Below are positions 13,092-18,991 of a stretch of 43,427 bases of DNA, in pieces; within the stretch, counting starts at the first letter, position 1, and every line of letters starts with the position of its first letter. The position numbers were made by a program, and so were the translations under genes. The notes below the pieces were generated by a model, which saw only the letters and a list, made by a program, of their open reading frames with translations, had not been told where the DNA came from and did no database searches. The stretch spans positions 1-43,427 of the forward strand of contig JAPPGU010000046.1 of NCBI GenBank assembly GCA_028821265.1. The letters are read 5' to 3'. The stretch is from a bacterium. Its GTDB lineage: Bacteria; Actinomycetota; Acidimicrobiia; Spongiisociales; Spongiisociaceae.

Positions 13092-15176
13092 TCAACCGAA
13101 CGCGCCGAACCACCGGTCGTGGATCTGCTTGTAGATGCCGGACTCGATGAGGTCCAGAAGGGCCAGGTCGATCCGCTCGCGTAGCGCGGTGTCGTCCTCG
13201 CTGACCATCAGCCCGTACTGGACCTTGTCGAACAGTGGCCCGACCGTGGTCACCGTGCCCTCGCCCCGGTGCGACACGTGGAACTGGAGAACCGGAGCAT
13301 CGAACACGACCGCATCGACCTCGCCCTGCGCCAGCTGGTCGTAGGCGTCTTCGAGATCGTGCACCACGACCGGTCCGACACCGATACCGGTCAGGTAGTC
13401 GTATCCGGCCGAGTCATGGACGGTAGCGATCCGGTGACCCGGGAGATCGGCGGGTCCGTCGATGTTGCCGCGGAGTTCGTTCACCGCCAGCGAAGAGGCG
13501 ATGGCAGCGGTGAAGCTGGCGAACACCAGGGTTCCCAGGGCGATCCAGATCAGGGCGAACAGCCTGCCCGGTTGTCCGCGGGCCACCTTGTCCCCGTAAC
13601 CGACCGTGCTCATGGTGACGACGGACCAGTAGAACGAGTCCCAGATGCCCCGGCCGTACGGCACCGCGAAGTCCGGGTTGTGCTTCCGTTCCAGCCACCA
13701 GATCAGGTGGGCGGCGACCAGAACGGCTACCGCGAACACCACCAGCAGCCAGGGCAGGTCCGAACCCCAGATAGCCGACAGGAAGACCCCGATGCGGTCC
13801 CAAACCGCTTGGGAGCCGCTGGTAGGGGTCATGATGGTGAGGCCGGTGTCCAGCAGGGGAAGGGAGAAGTCGATCGCTTCCTCGCGGGGGCCGGTGATCG
13901 CCGCGCCCCCCAGTCCCACGTCAGCCACCCCGCGGTTGATGTCGTCCACTTGCTTGGCGACGGTGTCGACCGCGTAGATCTCGACCGTCATGCCGAGGCG
14001 GGCGGCGATGAGCTCCACCAGGTCGACCTCGAAGCCGCTGTACGTACCTTGGTTGTAGATCACGAAGGGCGGAAGGGTGCGGGCGGCTACATGGAGCACC
14101 CCGCCGGCGGCGACAGTGCCCCCGCCCACGGCGCTGTCCAGGGCGATGGCCTCCGGATCGGCGGCTTCGATCCACACGGACACCACGTTCGAATTACGTT
14201 CCACCCAATCTTGGGCGTGCCGCCGGATGTCCTCCGGGTCACCCTGGTCCCGGACCATGTGGGCGTTCTGCGCGGAGATGTCCTCCAGGGAGATCACGAC
14301 CTGTTCTAGTAGCCGGCGAACGGACGGGTTGGCATCGAGGAAGCGGGAGTTCGCCACAGCCCGGATGTCGTTGGGGGGCCATCCCACCAGGCACGGATCG
14401 TTGGCGCAGCCCGGTATGCCCGGTATCGACGTCTGGTCGAGAAAGGCCGACTGGTCAGGAGGCAGGGAGGGGAAGGGTGTCTCCAGCCACACCACGTCAC
14501 GGCCTGGCACCAGCTGGCCGACGGTCCAGTTGGGAGTCCACGTGTAGTAGAGAACCGGTTGACCCGCCTCGAACCGGGCGATGGTCTCGGCGATTAGCGG
14601 CGAGTAGTCGCCCTGAACCTGTTCGACCGTGGCATCCAGCCCGAATGCTTCGAGATGGTGCTCGATGACGTGGGAACAGGTCCACCCGGTCTCGCAACCG
14701 ATCAGGTCGGCCCGCCCATCGGCGTCCAGGTCGAACAGCGCGGCGACTTCAGGATCGGCCAGGTCTCCGAGGCTGGTTATGCCGTGCGCCCGTGCCGTGG
14801 CCGCGTCGACGAAATAGCCCTGGAGAGCCCCCGCGTCGACTTGCGTCCCGACCCGCTCCACGAGGTCTTCCGCTATAAGACCGTCGTGGGTGGGGAACCA
14901 TCCGTTCACCCACAGATCGACCTCGCCTGCGGCCACCGCGCGGTAGAAGTCCGGGTTCTCCATGGTGACCGGACCTTCGACGCGATACCCCAGGCGCAGT
15001 AGCAGGAGCCGGTACACCTCCGCCTGGAACCAGCCGGTGTCCCAGGTCGCCCGGGCCATCCGCACGGTCTTGGCCTCGACGGGATCCCCCTCCGGCTGGC
15101 CCAGCGCCGGGAGGACCGCCCCCATGGCCAGCAGCGCCAGAACCGACAGCGAGCAGGCGATCAGGGTGCGGCGCAC
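13092..15176 (-). CDS. OpuAC-fused, GluR0-like ligand-gated K+ channel
   Basis: About 694 residues. Order of parts, numbered from the GTG at 15176: signal peptide (about 1-26); OpuAC/ProX-type solute-binding domain (about 36-335) with tryptophans at 45, 89, 93, 213 and 217 and a Ca-loop-like DLDADGRAD (149-157); periplasmic amino-acid-binding half S1 (about 359-456); helix M1 (about 473-495); pore loop with K+ filter TVGYGD (524-529); helix M2 (about 539-564) with SFTAAIASSL, reminiscent of the iGluR SYTANLAAF gate; S2 (about 568-691). In S1, ITGPREEAIDFS keeps the arginine (431) that binds the ligand carboxylate in glutamate receptors; in S2, VVFDAPVL keeps the acidic residue (626). An upstream TTG at 15203 is possible, but GGAG lies six bases before the GTG. 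Predicted role: a K+-selective channel gated by extracellular solutes. Confidence 0.9.
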   Translation of the reverse strand: MRRTLIACSLSVLALLAMGAVLPALGQPEGDPVEAKTVRMARATWDTGWFQAEVYRLLLLRLGYRVEGPVTMENPDFYRAVAAGEVDLWVNGWFPTHDGLIAEDLVERVGTQVDAGALQGYFVDAATARAHGITSLGDLADPEVAALFDLDADGRADLIGCETGWTCSHVIEHHLEAFGLDATVEQVQGDYSPLIAETIARFEAGQPVLYYTWTPNWTVGQLVPGRDVVWLETPFPSLPPDQSAFLDQTSIPGIPGCANDPCLVGWPPNDIRAVANSRFLDANPSVRRLLEQVVISLEDISAQNAHMVRDQGDPEDIRRHAQDWVERNSNVVSVWIEAADPEAIALDSAVGGGTVAAGGVLHVAARTLPPFVIYNQGTYSGFEVDLVELIAARLGMTVEIYAVDTVAKQVDDINRGVADVGLGGAAITGPREEAIDFSLPLLDTGLTIMTPTSGSQAVWDRIGVFLSAIWGSDLPWLLVVFAVAVLVAAHLIWWLERKHNPDFAVPYGRGIWDSFYWSVVTMSTVGYGDKVARGQPGRLFALIWIALGTLVFASFTAAIASSLAVNELRGNIDGPADLPGHRIATVHDSAGYDYLTGIGVGPVVVHDLEDAYDQLAQGEVDAVVFDAPVLQFHVSHRGEGTVTTVGPLFDKVQYGLMVSEDDTALRERIDLALLDLIESGIYKQIHDRWFGAFG

Positions 15177-15202
15177 GATGGTCTCCGGTAGGGACTGCGC
15201 CA

Positions 15203-15208
15203 AGGCTA
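15203..15208 (-). promoter_or_regulatory. Candidate -10 box of the K+ channel gene
   Basis: TAGCCT on the minus strand, 26 bases before the GTG at 15176, leaving a short leader that carries the GGAG site. It makes the TTG at 15203 an unlikely start, because transcription would begin downstream of it. Confidence 0.4.
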
Positions 15209-15357
15209 GCCAGCCCTGATTACTCCAGTTCCCGGCATGCCGACGCGCTCACTCCCCTCTCCTGTAGTGGCCCATCCATGAATGATCGGGGCTCGTATCG
15301 GTCCTTCCTCGCCCAATAAATACTTGGGTTTCCCCGACCGAGCGGTGCCTCTCTCCG

Positions 15358-15363
15358 TATAGT
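15358..15363 (+). promoter_or_regulatory. -10 box of the BCCT operon
   Basis: TATAGT in the 250-nt divergent gap between channel and carrier. The transcript would begin near 15370, directly before the hairpin at 15373-15402. An AT-rich stretch (about 15313-15325, AATAAATACTT) lies upstream and could hold a regulator site. No firm -35 box. Confidence 0.45.
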
Positions 15364-15372
15364 CAACGAGCA

Positions 15373-15402
15373 CGGGTCCCGCCGGGACGGCCGCGGGACC
15401 CG
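15373..15402 (+). promoter_or_regulatory. Leader hairpin of the BCCT operon
   Basis: CGGGTCCCGC and GCGGGACCCG form a perfect 10-bp stem with a 10-nt loop, 24 nt before an 11-codon leader ORF. The loop contains GGGAC, so an alternative small hairpin GTCCC-GCC-GGGAC is mutually exclusive with the large one. This could be an operator palindrome on DNA or a switch in the mRNA leader. Confidence 0.6.
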
Positions 15403-15426
15403 GCAGGCGACTGAAAGGAGGCCCGT

Positions 15427-15462
15427 ATGGTCATCAGCATCGGGAGGTGGCGCCATGGCTGA
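15427..15462 (+). CDS. 11-codon leader ORF before the BCCT gene
   Basis: MVISIGRWRHG, starting at an ATG with a very strong ribosome binding site (GAAAGGAGG, five bases away). It runs through the ribosome binding site of the carrier gene (GGGAGG) and stops eight bases inside it. The peptide itself has no feature I recognise. The likely role is translational coupling: ribosomes finishing here restart at 15455. Together with the hairpin it suggests control at the level of translation. Confidence 0.5.
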   Translation: MVISIGRWRHG

Positions 15463-17233
15463 CGGCAAGGGTCACGACCAGGACCTCGATCTCACCGGCA
15501 TATCCGAGGCCTACGAGGACTGGGAGAAGGACCAAGAACGCCGCCGCGAGGCTGCCATCCGGGAACGTGCGCACTTCCAGGGTCTTCAGGTAGACCCTGA
15601 CATCGACTTCTATCCCGAGGTGGCCGATCGGGAGCCCGGTGACAAGAACATAGTCAGGTGGGGATTCGACATACATCCCCAGGTGACGTTCTACGCCGCG
15701 GGATTCCTGGTGATCTTCATCGCGGCCACCCTGATCTTCCCGGATCAGGCGGGTGGGGTGTTCAGCGCCATCCTCACCTTCATCAACGAGAAGGTGGGCT
15801 GGCTGTACATCATCGCGTTCAACGTCTTCATCGGAGCCGCGCTCTACTTCGCGTTGGGCAGGTACGGCAAGATACGACTAGGCGGCCCGGGGGCCCTACC
15901 GGAGTTCTCCACCCCCGCCTGGTACGCCATGCTGATCTCGGCCGGCCTCGGCATCGGGTTGATGTTCTGGGGCGTGGCAGAGCCGATCTTCCACCTGACG
16001 GCGCCGCCTCCCCTGTTCGACGTAGAACCCTTGTCGACGGGCGCGGCCCGGGCATCGCTGGCGACCTCCTACCTCCACTGGGGGATCCATGGATGGGCGC
16101 TGTACGGCCTGGTAGCCCTCGCCCTGGGGTTCTTCGCCTATAACCGGGGACTGCCCCTGACCTTCCGCTCGGTCTTCTACCCGATCCTCGGTCCGAAGAT
16201 CTACGGCGGATGGGGCAATGCGATCGATATCCTCACCGTGGTGGCCACCCTCTTCGGTCTGGCCACTTCGCTGGGGTTCGGCGCCTCGCAGGCCGCCGCG
16301 GGGCTGAACAAGGTCTTCGGCGTACCGGATACCCTGCTGGTCCAGATTCTGCTCATCGCAGGTATCACGGGGCTGGCCACCATCTCGGTTGTGGCCGGCC
16401 TGGACGCCGGAGTCAAGAGGCTCAGCGCGCTCAACGTATGGCTGGCCGCGGCCTTCCTGGTCTTCGTACTGGCGGTGGGCCCGACCCTGCTGGTCCTCTC
16501 GCTGTACGTGGAGAGCATCGGCGTCTACATCCAGATCCTGCCGGAGTTCTCGTTCTGGAACGCAGCCCTGCTCGACACGCAGTGGCAGCAGTGGTGGACC
16601 ATCTTCTACTGGGGATGGTGGATCTCCTGGTCCCCCTTCGTCGGCATGTTCATCGCCCGGATCTCCAAGGGGCGCTCGGTACGGGAAATGATCATCGGTG
16701 TGATCGTCCTTCCCTGCCTCCTGTGCTTCCTGTGGTTCGCGGTGTTCGGCGGAGCGGCCATGAATCTCCAGATGACCGGAGAGTTGGACGTGGCGACGGC
16801 TGTGAACGAAAACGTGGCGACAGCCCTGTTCGTGATGCTGGAGGCCTTCCCATGGACCTTCTTCGTCTCGATAGTGGGCATCCTGTTGCTGGTCTCGTTC
16901 TTCGTCACCTCGTCGGACTCGGGGTCCCTGGTGGTTGACCACCTGACCTCGGGCGGAAAGCTCGACTCGCCCAAACCGCAGCGCGTGTTCTGGGCGCTGA
17001 TGGAAGGCGCGGTGGCGATCGTGTTGCTGGCCGGAGGCGGCCTGTCCGCCCTCCAGACAGCCGCCGTGGCTACCGGACTGCCGTTCCTCTTCGTGCTCCT
17101 GATAATGCTGTGGAGCCTGAAGAAGGCCTTCGACGAAGAGCTCGACCTTCTGGAGAGCCACTACGACGAGGCCATCTTCCAAGCCCAGCACAGCGGCTTG
17201 ATCGAGCGGCTGGAGAGAGGAGGTGACAAGTGA
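15455..17233 (+). CDS. BCCT-family betaine/quaternary amine transporter
   Basis: 592-residue secondary importer of the BetP/OpuD family. A hydrophilic, charged N-terminal tail (about 1-70) precedes 12 predicted helices. The BetP aromatic boxes are complete: W209, W214 and Y217 in LHWGIHGWALYG, and W386, W388, W389 and W392 in YWGWWISWSPFVGMF. The glycine stretch GLGIGLM (164-170) in helix 3 resembles the Na+-coupled members more than the CaiT exchanger. Expected action: Na+-driven uptake of glycine betaine or a relative under osmotic stress. ATG with GGGAGG upstream, overlapped by the leader ORF; the stop overlaps the next gene as GTGA. The long N-terminal tail could be an osmosensor, which in BetP lies in the C-terminus. 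Confidence 0.95.
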   Translation: MADGKGHDQDLDLTGISEAYEDWEKDQERRREAAIRERAHFQGLQVDPDIDFYPEVADREPGDKNIVRWGFDIHPQVTFYAAGFLVIFIAATLIFPDQAGGVFSAILTFINEKVGWLYIIAFNVFIGAALYFALGRYGKIRLGGPGALPEFSTPAWYAMLISAGLGIGLMFWGVAEPIFHLTAPPPLFDVEPLSTGAARASLATSYLHWGIHGWALYGLVALALGFFAYNRGLPLTFRSVFYPILGPKIYGGWGNAIDILTVVATLFGLATSLGFGASQAAAGLNKVFGVPDTLLVQILLIAGITGLATISVVAGLDAGVKRLSALNVWLAAAFLVFVLAVGPTLLVLSLYVESIGVYIQILPEFSFWNAALLDTQWQQWWTIFYWGWWISWSPFVGMFIARISKGRSVREMIIGVIVLPCLLCFLWFAVFGGAAMNLQMTGELDVATAVNENVATALFVMLEAFPWTFFVSIVGILLLVSFFVTSSDSGSLVVDHLTSGGKLDSPKPQRVFWALMEGAVAIVLLAGGGLSALQTAAVATGLPFLFVLLIMLWSLKKAFDEELDLLESHYDEAIFQAQHSGLIERLERGGDK

Positions 17234-18162
17234 TCAAGAGATCGAGCACACGGATCGCCGCTGTCGCGGCCTTTGTGCTGGTGCTCTCGGCCTGCGCCGT
17301 CCAGGAAGAGGAAGGCCCCGTGGCGATCGCCCGGGCCGACTGGAGTTCCGGCTACATGCAGGCTGCCATCTACGCGCAGCTGATCGGGGAACTCGGGTAC
17401 GAGGTCACCGATCCGGCGGCCGCCGAACTCAGGCCCTACTCGTTCTATCCCGCCCTTGCGGCCGGACAGTACGACCTGTGGGCCAACGGCTGGTTCCCCC
17501 TCCACGATATTTTCCTGGAGGGAGAGAACGTCACCGGCCAGGCGGTCGAGCTGCCCATCGAGGCGGTGGGCTGGCAGGTGGCCGGCGGCGGCGGTGAAGG
17601 CATCATGGTCGACAAGGCCACGGCCGACCGGCTGGGAATCTCCTCGATGGACGGTGTGGCCGCCAATGCCGGCGTCTTCGACAAGAACGGCAACGGCAAG
17701 GCGGACTTCATCGGCTGCAATGTCGGATGGGGATGCCAGATCGCCTTCAACGAGCAGATCGCCAACGAAAGCTGGGGCGCCGGCGTGGAGCAGATCTCCG
17801 GCACCTACGACCAGCTGATCAGAGGCGTCATCGACGAAATAGAGGCCGGCGAGTCGGCGGTGTTCTATGCCTGGACCCCCAACTGGACCAGCACCGTCCT
17901 GGTGCCGGGCCAGAATGCCGTGTGGGTGCAGTCGGACATCAACGACATCCGAGCGGTGGCCAACACCGACTTCCTGGATAGGAACCCGGACATTCGCCGC
18001 CTCCTCGAGGTGGTGGCGATCCCGTTGGCCGACATCGCGGCACAGAACGCCAGGATGGCCGCCGGGGAGTACTCCGAGGCCGATATCGAGGCCGACGCCG
18101 CGGCTTGGATCGCCGACAACCGTGCCCAGGTCGACGACTGGCTGGCAACGGCACGCGGCTGA
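17230..18162 (+). CDS. OpuAC/ProX-like lipoprotein coupled to the BCCT carrier
   Basis: 310 residues. Lipobox LSAC with the lipid cysteine at 22, so anchored to the outer face of the membrane. The mature part is an OpuAC-type quaternary amine-binding domain with tryptophans at 38, 84, 88, 215 and 219, a Ca-loop-like DKNGNGKAD (151-159) and a cysteine pair in GCNVGWGC (162-169). Almost every one of these features has a counterpart in the N-terminal domain of the K+ channel (NGWFP, WTPNWT, NDIRAVAN, DIAAQNA). GTG start with AGGAGG at six bases; it overlaps the carrier stop by four bases. No ABC permease or ATPase lies nearby. It may deliver solute to the carrier or sense it; both are inference. 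Confidence 0.93.
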   Translation: MIKRSSTRIAAVAAFVLVLSACAVQEEEGPVAIARADWSSGYMQAAIYAQLIGELGYEVTDPAAAELRPYSFYPALAAGQYDLWANGWFPLHDIFLEGENVTGQAVELPIEAVGWQVAGGGGEGIMVDKATADRLGISSMDGVAANAGVFDKNGNGKADFIGCNVGWGCQIAFNEQIANESWGAGVEQISGTYDQLIRGVIDEIEAGESAVFYAWTPNWTSTVLVPGQNAVWVQSDINDIRAVANTDFLDRNPDIRRLLEVVAIPLADIAAQNARMAAGEYSEADIEADAAAWIADNRAQVDDWLATARG

Positions 18163-18265: not shown

Positions 18266-18991
18266 CTATCTCCGCTGCCACCGGAGCGCCATGAGGTGGG
18301 GGATGTCCCGGTGCTTGGCAAGGATCGGATCCCTGGCGGCCACGCGAGGGCCCACTCCGTCCTCCAGCACTTCCTCCAGAGACCAACCTGCGGTGGCGGC
18401 CTCGGTGAGCAGCCTCCCGATCGGCCGGTGGATGAACTCCACGGACCGGTTCCCGGCCGGCTCCCGGGACCGGCCCGGGTTCAGGTAGTCCCCGAACCTC
18501 CAGAACAACTCGCCGTCGGTCGGGTCGATCACCGGCCCGGACCGGGGCGCCGTGTAGACCGGATGGTTGATGACGACCACCAGCGATCCACCGGCGCGGG
18601 TGACCCGGGCGGTCTCGGCGAAGAAGCCTGCCGAGCCCTCGAAGTGCTCCAGCGCCAGCACGGCGTAGGCGCCGTCCACCGCCTCGTCGCGTACGCACGC
18701 CAGGTCGGGCAGCCGTCCGAGGAACACAGGATGGCGGCCGGAGGCCAGGCGCGCCAGCTCGAGACTGACATCCACACCGATCACGCGGACGCCCCGGGCC
18801 GCCGCCCTCTCGCCGATGCGCCCATCCCCGCAACCCAGATCCAGCAATACCTCCCCGCTCCGCGGCCGAAGCACTTGGAAGAAGAGCGGATCCACTTCTT
18901 CCCGGTAGGCCGGATCATCGGCCTCGGCGGACCACCAGCCGGCTAGGTCGATCCAGTCGTCTGCTTGCTCATGTCTCCGTGGCGTCCTCAT
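18266..18991 (-). CDS. Class I SAM-dependent methyltransferase
   Basis: 241 residues. SAM motif I is LLDLGCGDGRIGERA (about 49-63), the acidic residue after strand 2 is in IGVDVS (about 72-77), motif III is AVLALEHFEG, and GGSLVVVINHP follows. It is closest in style to UbiE/UbiG-type small-molecule methyltransferases, but the substrate cannot be read from the sequence. It begins 15 nt after the uvrA stop and is probably the last gene of the uvrA transcript. Glycine-betaine synthesis by methylation was considered, because the next locus handles betaine, but no glycine/sarcosine methyltransferase signature is visible. Confidence 0.85.
   Translation of the reverse strand: MRTPRRHEQADDWIDLAGWWSAEADDPAYREEVDPLFFQVLRPRSGEVLLDLGCGDGRIGERAAARGVRVIGVDVSLELARLASGRHPVFLGRLPDLACVRDEAVDGAYAVLALEHFEGSAGFFAETARVTRAGGSLVVVINHPVYTAPRSGPVIDPTDGELFWRFGDYLNPGRSREPAGNRSVEFIHRPIGRLLTEAATAGWSLEEVLEDGVGPRVAARDPILAKHRDIPHLMALRWQRR

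Follow-up and report, generated by a model that had tools for sequence, protein, structure and literature searches.

Why should the gene for a potassium channel stand back to back with those for a betaine-type carrier and a solute-binding lipoprotein? The question is raised by positions 13092 to 18162 of a 43,427-nucleotide stretch of DNA (hereafter the window; contig JAPPGU010000046.1 of assembly GCA_028821265.1, a bacterium of the class Acidimicrobiia), where an initial annotation had described a K+ channel, a BCCT carrier and a binding lipoprotein grouped together and divergently transcribed. All of these elements lie where that annotation had placed them. We find that the channel belongs among the prokaryotic ionotropic glutamate receptors (iGluRs) and bears a ProX-type solute-binding domain at its amino terminus, and that a functional link among channel, carrier and binding protein is well supported by the recurrence of the three genes together. 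The features of the locus are as follows.

13092 to 15203, minus strand: ProX-iGluR, a K+-channel-type prokaryotic iGluR with a ProX amino-terminal domain, 703 residues counted from a TTG
14199 to 15071, minus strand: ProX/OpuAC amino-terminal domain, residues 45-335, with aromatic cage W102, W174, W222 plus H106 and Cys pair C170/C176
13824 to 14099, minus strand: S1 half of the amino-acid-type ligand-binding domain, residues ~369-460, with T437 and R440 conserved
13473 to 13757, minus strand: M1, pore loop and M2, residues ~483-577
13590 to 13607, minus strand: K+ selectivity filter TVGYGD, residues 533-538
13104 to 13469, minus strand: S2 half of the ligand-binding domain, residues ~579-700, with D635 conserved
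15204 to 15454, no strand: divergent intergenic region between channel and carrier
15455 to 17233, plus strand: BCCT-family carrier, with aromatic boxes W209, W214, Y217 and W388, W389, W392, and GLGIG at 164-168
15455 to 15679, plus strand: ~75-residue amino-terminal extension of the carrier, with the motif FxGLQ[VIL]
17230 to 18162, plus strand: ProX-like lipoprotein, with a lipobox (LSAC, by eye) and a 4-bp overlap with the carrier gene

A glutamate-receptor channel with a ProX domain

The amino-terminal part of the channel (residues 45-335) matches the Pfam domain OpuAC (3e-51) and reaches 336 bits against the NCBIfam ProX model, over the cut-off of 215. A match to SBP_bac_3 is spread across residues 375-700 (8.1e-25), i.e. 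split into S1 and S2 halves around a pore that is itself recognized by Ion_trans_2 at residues 491-572 (2.1e-15). A search of solved structures pairs the first half of the protein with E. coli ProX (1R9L, 4.1e-58) and the second with 2PYY, 'Ionotropic glutamate receptor bacterial homologue' (7.4e-35), which is followed by binding proteins and by numerous chains of NMDA receptors. An AlphaFold2 model built with 32 fusions has a mean pLDDT of 83.1 and a pTM of 0.50, so that the folds of its domains are firmer than their arrangement; it places helices at residues 483-505, 516-532 and 544-577. The best match of this model in the PDB (Foldseek) is again 1r9l (2.2e-30, target TM 0.91, rmsd 1.6), and the next are GlnPQ tandem domains and the ligand-binding and transmembrane parts of AMPA receptors (~2e-20).

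Given these domain matches, solved relatives and model matches, we regard it as certain, at the level of sequence, that the channel is a GluR0/NpGluR-type receptor-channel with a ProX domain at its amino terminus, and hence with two binding domains. Both the K+ channel and the OpuAC domain of the initial annotation were found, but the protein had been under-described, since S1 and S2 were missed; their detection rules out a plain voltage-type K+ channel carrying an attached OpuAC domain. Both binding domains are predicted to be extracellular from a signal-like helix and the iGluR topology. Translation probably starts at the GTG at 15176, which gives a product beginning MRRTLIA... that matches relatives. 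A related combination occurs in a Chloroflexaceae lipoprotein (L104:330-2468), where ProX is joined to an SBP_bac_3-type domain and no channel helices are seen by eye; this two-domain binding protein pairs the same ligand classes as the receptor-channel.

Both sites retain the residues expected of them across 58 aligned fusions (57 loci from the wide scan described below and the window, many of them closely related). E. coli ProX holds its ligand through W65, H69, W140, G141, C142 and W188 (PMC10087775), which align with W102, H106, W174, T175, C176 and W222 of the channel, while the Cys pair C170/C176 aligns with C136/C142. W174, C170 and C176 are kept in all 58 fusions, W102 in 56 (the remaining two being gaps) and H106 in 48; position 222 is W in 50, F in seven and Y in one. 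The tryptophans, cysteine pair and D-rich loop that the initial annotation saw shared between channel and lipoprotein are thus present as it said and are, by alignment with E. coli ProX, features of the ProX family. Its word-for-word motifs also recur in both proteins (channel/lipoprotein positions 100/86 for NGWFP, 222/215 for WTPNWT and 278/238 for NDIRAVAN).

At the second site, an S1 arginine and an S2 aspartate are the residues that hold the amino acid in prokaryotic iGluRs (Ger et al., 2010, PMC2950845). Inspection of the alignment by eye assigns them to R440 (58/58) and D635 (56/58); T437 is likewise invariant (58/58). In the K+ filter, G535 and G537 are kept in every fusion and Y536 in 56 of the 58. 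Position 599, a Thr in 2PYY by alignment, is Ala in 40 fusions and Thr in seven. A Thr at the equivalent position helps to hold the distal carboxylate of glutamate in animal receptors, and the second ligand, at S1/S2, may therefore be other than glutamate.

The carrier and the free binding protein

The carrier is a full-length BCCT (PF02028, 2.5e-184), and its best full-length NCBIfam match is the glycine betaine model, at 540 bits under the cut-off of 650. In the Na+/trimethylamine symporter TmaT the box residues are W146, W151, Y154, W325, W326 and W329 (PMC11708041). These correspond to W209, W214, Y217, W388, W389 and W392 in the TM4 and TM8 boxes of the carrier, and TmaT Met105 corresponds to Leu165. 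Judged from its family, the carrier's solute is probably a methylated amine.

The lipoprotein, predicted from its lipobox to be extracellular, matches OpuAC (3.6e-34) and lies barely above the NCBIfam ProX cut-off (217.1 bits against 215), with the ProX cage present as W88, H92, the Trp of GCNVGWGC, and W215. The OpuAC regions of channel and lipoprotein share 38% identity across 351 aligned columns (E 5e-63); at that distance the lipoprotein is, by sequence, no recent copy of the fused domain.

The trio recurs within the order and beyond it

Co-occurrence in other genomes had been set beforehand as the test of the association, a grouping confined to one genome counting against it; the grouping is present in 21 genomes of the window's order and in several phyla. 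Fusions were found in at least 21 of 138 genomes of the order, 20 of them full-length (the window included) and one (G026) split over two contigs, and the genomes that bear them fall in two families. Channel, carrier and ProX-type lipoprotein are adjacent in all 21, divergently in 19 and convergently in two (G133, G115). BCCT carriers occur in 26 of the 138 genomes, i.e. in 21/21 with a fusion against 5/117 of the others (Fisher 2e-20, an overstatement, since genomes of the order are related and non-independent), and every one of the 26 adjoins a binding-protein gene. The five BCCT genomes without a fusion among the matches listed are G014, G075, G089, G086 and G088, with completeness of 81-92%.

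A wider scan of 84,980 species genomes yielded 76 loci from its best 80 matches: 57 single-frame fusions, two fusions broken into two open reading frames (L096, L101), one fragment (L115), two contig halves of one gene (L076, L091) and 14 ProX loci without a channel. The two broken genes (L096:8926-11089 and L101:8929-11087) each span two reading frames, through decay or sequencing error. Thirty-seven close loci, titled Acidimicrobiia, Acidimicrobiaceae or bacterium, include 18 already counted in the order and 19 new ones. A BCCT gene is present in 34 of them and lacking in L062, L064 and L073, all new and with upstream flanks of 58-163 bases. A third arrangement, carrier, lipoprotein and channel on one strand, was seen in three Acidimicrobiia (L065, L067, L072).

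Among 23 more distant fusion loci, 11 have a BCCT gene beside the channel. These are L075 (Nitriliruptorales), L074 (the named strain Salsipaludibacter albus AS10) and L082, L090, L097 and L114 (other Acidimicrobiales or Acidimicrobiaceae); the others are L086 (Chloroflexi), L094 (Kiritimatiellae, where the BCCT gene overlaps the channel gene by 4 bp) and L095, L099 and L101 (Deltaproteobacteria). Nine of the 11 also have a free OpuAC-family gene, of three kinds. The free protein is ProX-like in Acidimicrobiia, L074 and L075; ChoX-like in L095, L099 and L101 (TIGR03414, 134-136 bits for L095 and L101, under the cut-off of 379); and OsmF-like in L090 and L097 (97-118 bits, under the cut-off of 400) and, by profile, also in L082 and L114.

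The proposal of the initial annotation that one binding domain is common to both arms of the system goes too far, since the free proteins of the Deltaproteobacteria and some Acidimicrobiales are ChoX- or OsmF-like and the carrier and its binding protein also occur as a pair where the channel is absent; that the two arms carry an identical domain is weakened by these other kinds and by the 38% identity. The presence of different OpuAC-superfamily members beside related channels and carriers argues that the association is one that arose more than once, and in our reading of the sequences nothing points more strongly to a functional connection among the parts than this recruitment of differing partners.

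The amino-terminal extension of the carrier was found in 10 of 13 channel-linked BCCTs examined and is absent from the three deltaproteobacterial ones; its bearers are the window carrier and those of L086, L094, L082, L090, L097, L114, L074, L075, L034 and L038. It is also present in all five BCCTs of the fusion-less genomes of the order, and was absent from 28 background BCCT loci, which represent 27 genes (L141 and L189 being one gene, with a YYGLGV variant).

A BCCT gene lies somewhere in 18 of the 19 genomes examined behind distant fusion loci, against a rough base rate of 43/198 in the window's phylum. Neither clustering nor inspection by eye found a common partner among the neighbours of the BCCT-less fusions. 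A set of 145 cyanobacterial genomes held three clear fusion genomes, two of which were already known. Six stretches of viral contigs matched a search pattern, none of them a relative, and among 146 plasmid records with a match none covered 80% of the query, the annotated ones among the matches listed being ProX. Judged from record titles, with no statistic, many fusion hosts are apparently marine, hypersaline or sponge-associated.

Controls and ancestry

Near unfused iGluRs, neither BCCT nor OpuAC was found at any of 18 loci (16 cyanobacterial and two of the window's own order, with up to 6 kb of flank, five of them having less on one side), a set that is weak alone because fused cyanobacterial channels lack BCCT too. 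An added set of 13 (10 from the phylum of L095 and three from that of L086, including the second iGluR of the genome that holds L086) likewise had neither, in flanks of 4 bases to 6 kb. Leaving out Cyanobacteria, BCCT linkage is 0/15 for unfused against 11/16 for fused channels; for all unfused iGluRs combined it is 0/31. No BCCT gene was found near the 14 ProX-only loci.

In a tree of 51 iGluR cores (33 fused and the first 18 unfused, the 13 added controls being left out), the fused cores and one unfused cyanobacterial row (L171) share a branch with support of 100/99, or 97/96 when long rows are removed. That the fusions form one strict clade, which L171 interrupts, is neither demonstrated nor rejected (p-AU 0.37). 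The topology fits a single fusion event with one loss, or a sister lineage.

A possible exchange of K+ for compatible solute

What might such a trio do? B. subtilis under hyperosmotic stress takes up K+, and then accumulates compatible solutes while K+ is exported (PMC8844918). A K+ channel with a compatible-solute domain beside a solute-type carrier would couple these last two processes. We therefore propose, tentatively and at slightly short of an even chance, that K+ flux is gated by compatible solute outside the cell, an amino acid serving as the second ligand, and that the carrier meanwhile brings the solute in. A solute such as glycine betaine outside the cell would occupy both the free lipoprotein and the amino-terminal domain of the channel; the lipoprotein would capture it at the mouth of the carrier, and occupancy of the ProX domain, alone or with an amino acid at S1/S2, would open or potentiate the K+ pore. 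K+ taken up earlier as an emergency osmolyte could then be released as the carrier imports compatible solute, and, should the carrier be coupled to Na+, the K+ current would also compensate for the inward movement of charge. Exchange of this kind seems to us the likeliest of several mechanisms, held with the same reserve. Its fullest form, an osmolyte exchanger in which K+ leaves through a dual-input betaine/amino-acid receptor-channel at the very moment when a BCCT aided by a binding protein can replace it, is more doubtful.

Several observations weigh against this proposal. Fusions are rare: samples of the phyla of L095 (198 genomes) and L086 (201 genomes) each yielded a single one, in the genome at the centre of the sample. 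Twelve of the 23 distant fusion loci have no BCCT gene in the flank (L078, L080, L081, L083, L084, L085, L088, L089, L092, L096, L098 and L100; L080 and L088 have under 2 kb of flank on each side); they are mostly cyanobacterial and include all seven cyanobacterial ones, and an eighth cyanobacterial fusion, L190, has no BCCT nearby either. L086 and L094 have a BCCT gene and no free OpuAC gene on their short contigs. The K+ filter is lost in L081 (8815-10950; TPFGAGN) and L100 (the same changes at 533 and 536), both of which we take from their names to be Jiangellales, which suggests a non-K+ pore or a protein that is no channel. Several of the unfused control flanks are short. Two other contigs (C58 and C16) of the window's genome (G000, in which the window is contig C23) encode proV-type ATPases that score above the cut-off.

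The carrier, moreover, is found paired without the channel. The five fusion-less genomes of the order keep an OpuAC-family gene next to BCCT (three ProX-like, two OsmF-like). In a phylum sample of 30 BCCT loci, nine have an OpuAC-type gene within 1.5 kb, three of them in fusion genomes, leaving 6/27 non-fusion loci with such a pair (four downstream on the same strand and OsmF-like, two near-identical ones on the opposite strand and ChoX-like). These pairs rule out that the carrier requires the channel; on this sampling, the pairing of BCCT with a binding protein is the more widespread arrangement, to which the channel is an addition. In one genome of the window's class (G187:C1, L189:7490-10320) an OsmF-like frame overlaps the BCCT gene, with no channel in the 19 kb fetched.

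The solute, too, need not be betaine, as the closest solved relative of the carrier is TmaT (508 bits) rather than BetP (303), with a 685-residue BCCT and choline transporters ranking between them. This bears on an unlikely rival, that the system senses nutrients or methylated amines in general (betaines, choline, carnitine, trimethylamine, trimethylamine N-oxide or dimethylsulfoniopropionate as carbon and nitrogen sources) and that the channel signals through the membrane potential instead of serving osmotic balance. The specificity of BCCT carriers cannot be told confidently from sequence (PMC5818414), and all three deltaproteobacterial loci have genes of catabolic type near the carrier: upstream of BCCT, PutA-like and cis-3-hydroxyproline dehydratase-like genes at L095:1029-5335 (581 bits, cut-off 747; 314, cut-off 500) and a cis-3-hydroxyproline dehydratase-like gene at L099:3981-5159 (304 bits, cut-off 500), and divergent from it sarcosine oxidase alpha- and beta-like genes at L101:1026-5636 (678 of the cut-off of 1164 and 391 of 529). 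They fit a role for betaines or proline betaine as a solute that is also food, and on their account we grade exchange lower and nutrient sensing higher. Against the latter, TmaT Met105 is replaced by Leu in the carrier, the best family model is the glycine betaine one, and none of the genes flanking the trio in the window is evidently catabolic. They comprise UvrC, RapZ, UvrA and, next to the lipoprotein gene, a methyltransferase-domain gene (18266-18991, minus strand, with no NCBIfam family above cut-off). ProX is thus not encoded here with ProV and ProW as in ProU. Elsewhere in relatives of the window genome, long open frames with two tandem ProX matches were noted (G023:C69, G029:C63, G027:C89, G021:C1).

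It is quite unlikely that the ProX domain serves merely as a capture or assembly device without gating, the pore answering solely to the amino acid at S1/S2. GluR0-type channels function without an amino-terminal domain (PMC6385376), and the unfused L171 nests among the fusions; but the cage residues, needless in a mere assembly domain, are kept in nearly every fusion, and BCCT linkage distinguishes the fusions from unfused iGluRs. Slightly less likely still is a gating of the opposite sign, in which solute binding would close a channel that otherwise admits K+ in the first osmotic response. In B. subtilis K+ uptake is lowered by glycine betaine import (PMC8844918). The sign of gating is not fixed by the sequence of the channel. 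Against this sign, ligand closure normally opens iGluR pores, and K+ can enter passively only when the membrane potential lies beyond the equilibrium potential of K+. Finally, although most fusion members are contigs of metagenome-assembled genomes, chance neighbours or a single-assembly artefact are ruled out by the 21 genomes of the order (one on a 3.0-Mb contig, G021), the named strain and the differing gene arrangements.

Relation to known systems and significance

The channel shares with the GluR0/NpGluR0-type (Group 1) iGluRs the S1 and S2 halves flanking M1-P-M2, the K+ filter, the S1 Arg and S2 Asp, and the signal-like amino-terminal helix; it differs in that a whole ProX domain of ~290 residues precedes S1. 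As GluR0 lacks an amino-terminal domain (PMC6385376), we call the channel a variant of Group 1. The words 'OpuAC' and 'betaine' are absent from the main text of the prokaryotic iGluR survey of Ger et al. (2010; PMC2950845). No OpuAC- or ProX-bearing glutamate receptor appeared among the open-access titles and abstract openings listed, and an open-access literature search for betaine-triggered K+ efflux returned mostly plant papers. Compared with ProX of the ProU ABC importer, the domain has the same fold, aromatic cage and Cys pair, but is fused to a channel or encoded with BCCT instead of an ABC permease and ATPase. The carrier has the full BCCT domain, both aromatic boxes and the GXGXG motif of BetP, BetT and TmaT, and differs from them in its amino-terminal extension and neighbouring binding-protein gene; no BCCT described so far is known to us to work with a binding protein. 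Eukaryotic iGluRs (NMDA, AMPA and plant GLR) have the same plan of an amino-terminal binding domain followed by S1, pore and S2, and NMDA chains are matched in sequence. In them the amino-terminal domain belongs to the LIVBP type; the channel has one of the ProX type, a K+ filter and no M4.

To our knowledge no physiological role has been settled for bacterial glutamate-receptor channels, and gene neighbourhood here points one of them to a ligand class and a process. The channel is a candidate path for K+ release during compatible-solute uptake. It also offers an iGluR core that independently carries a binding domain at its amino terminus, which bears on how such domains gained control of gating, and the recurring pair of BCCT and binding protein is a second oddity. 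If the exchanger is real, prokaryotic glutamate receptors would have a physiological role, betaine-gated K+ channels would be added to those known, and BCCT would join the classes of secondary carriers assisted by a binding protein.

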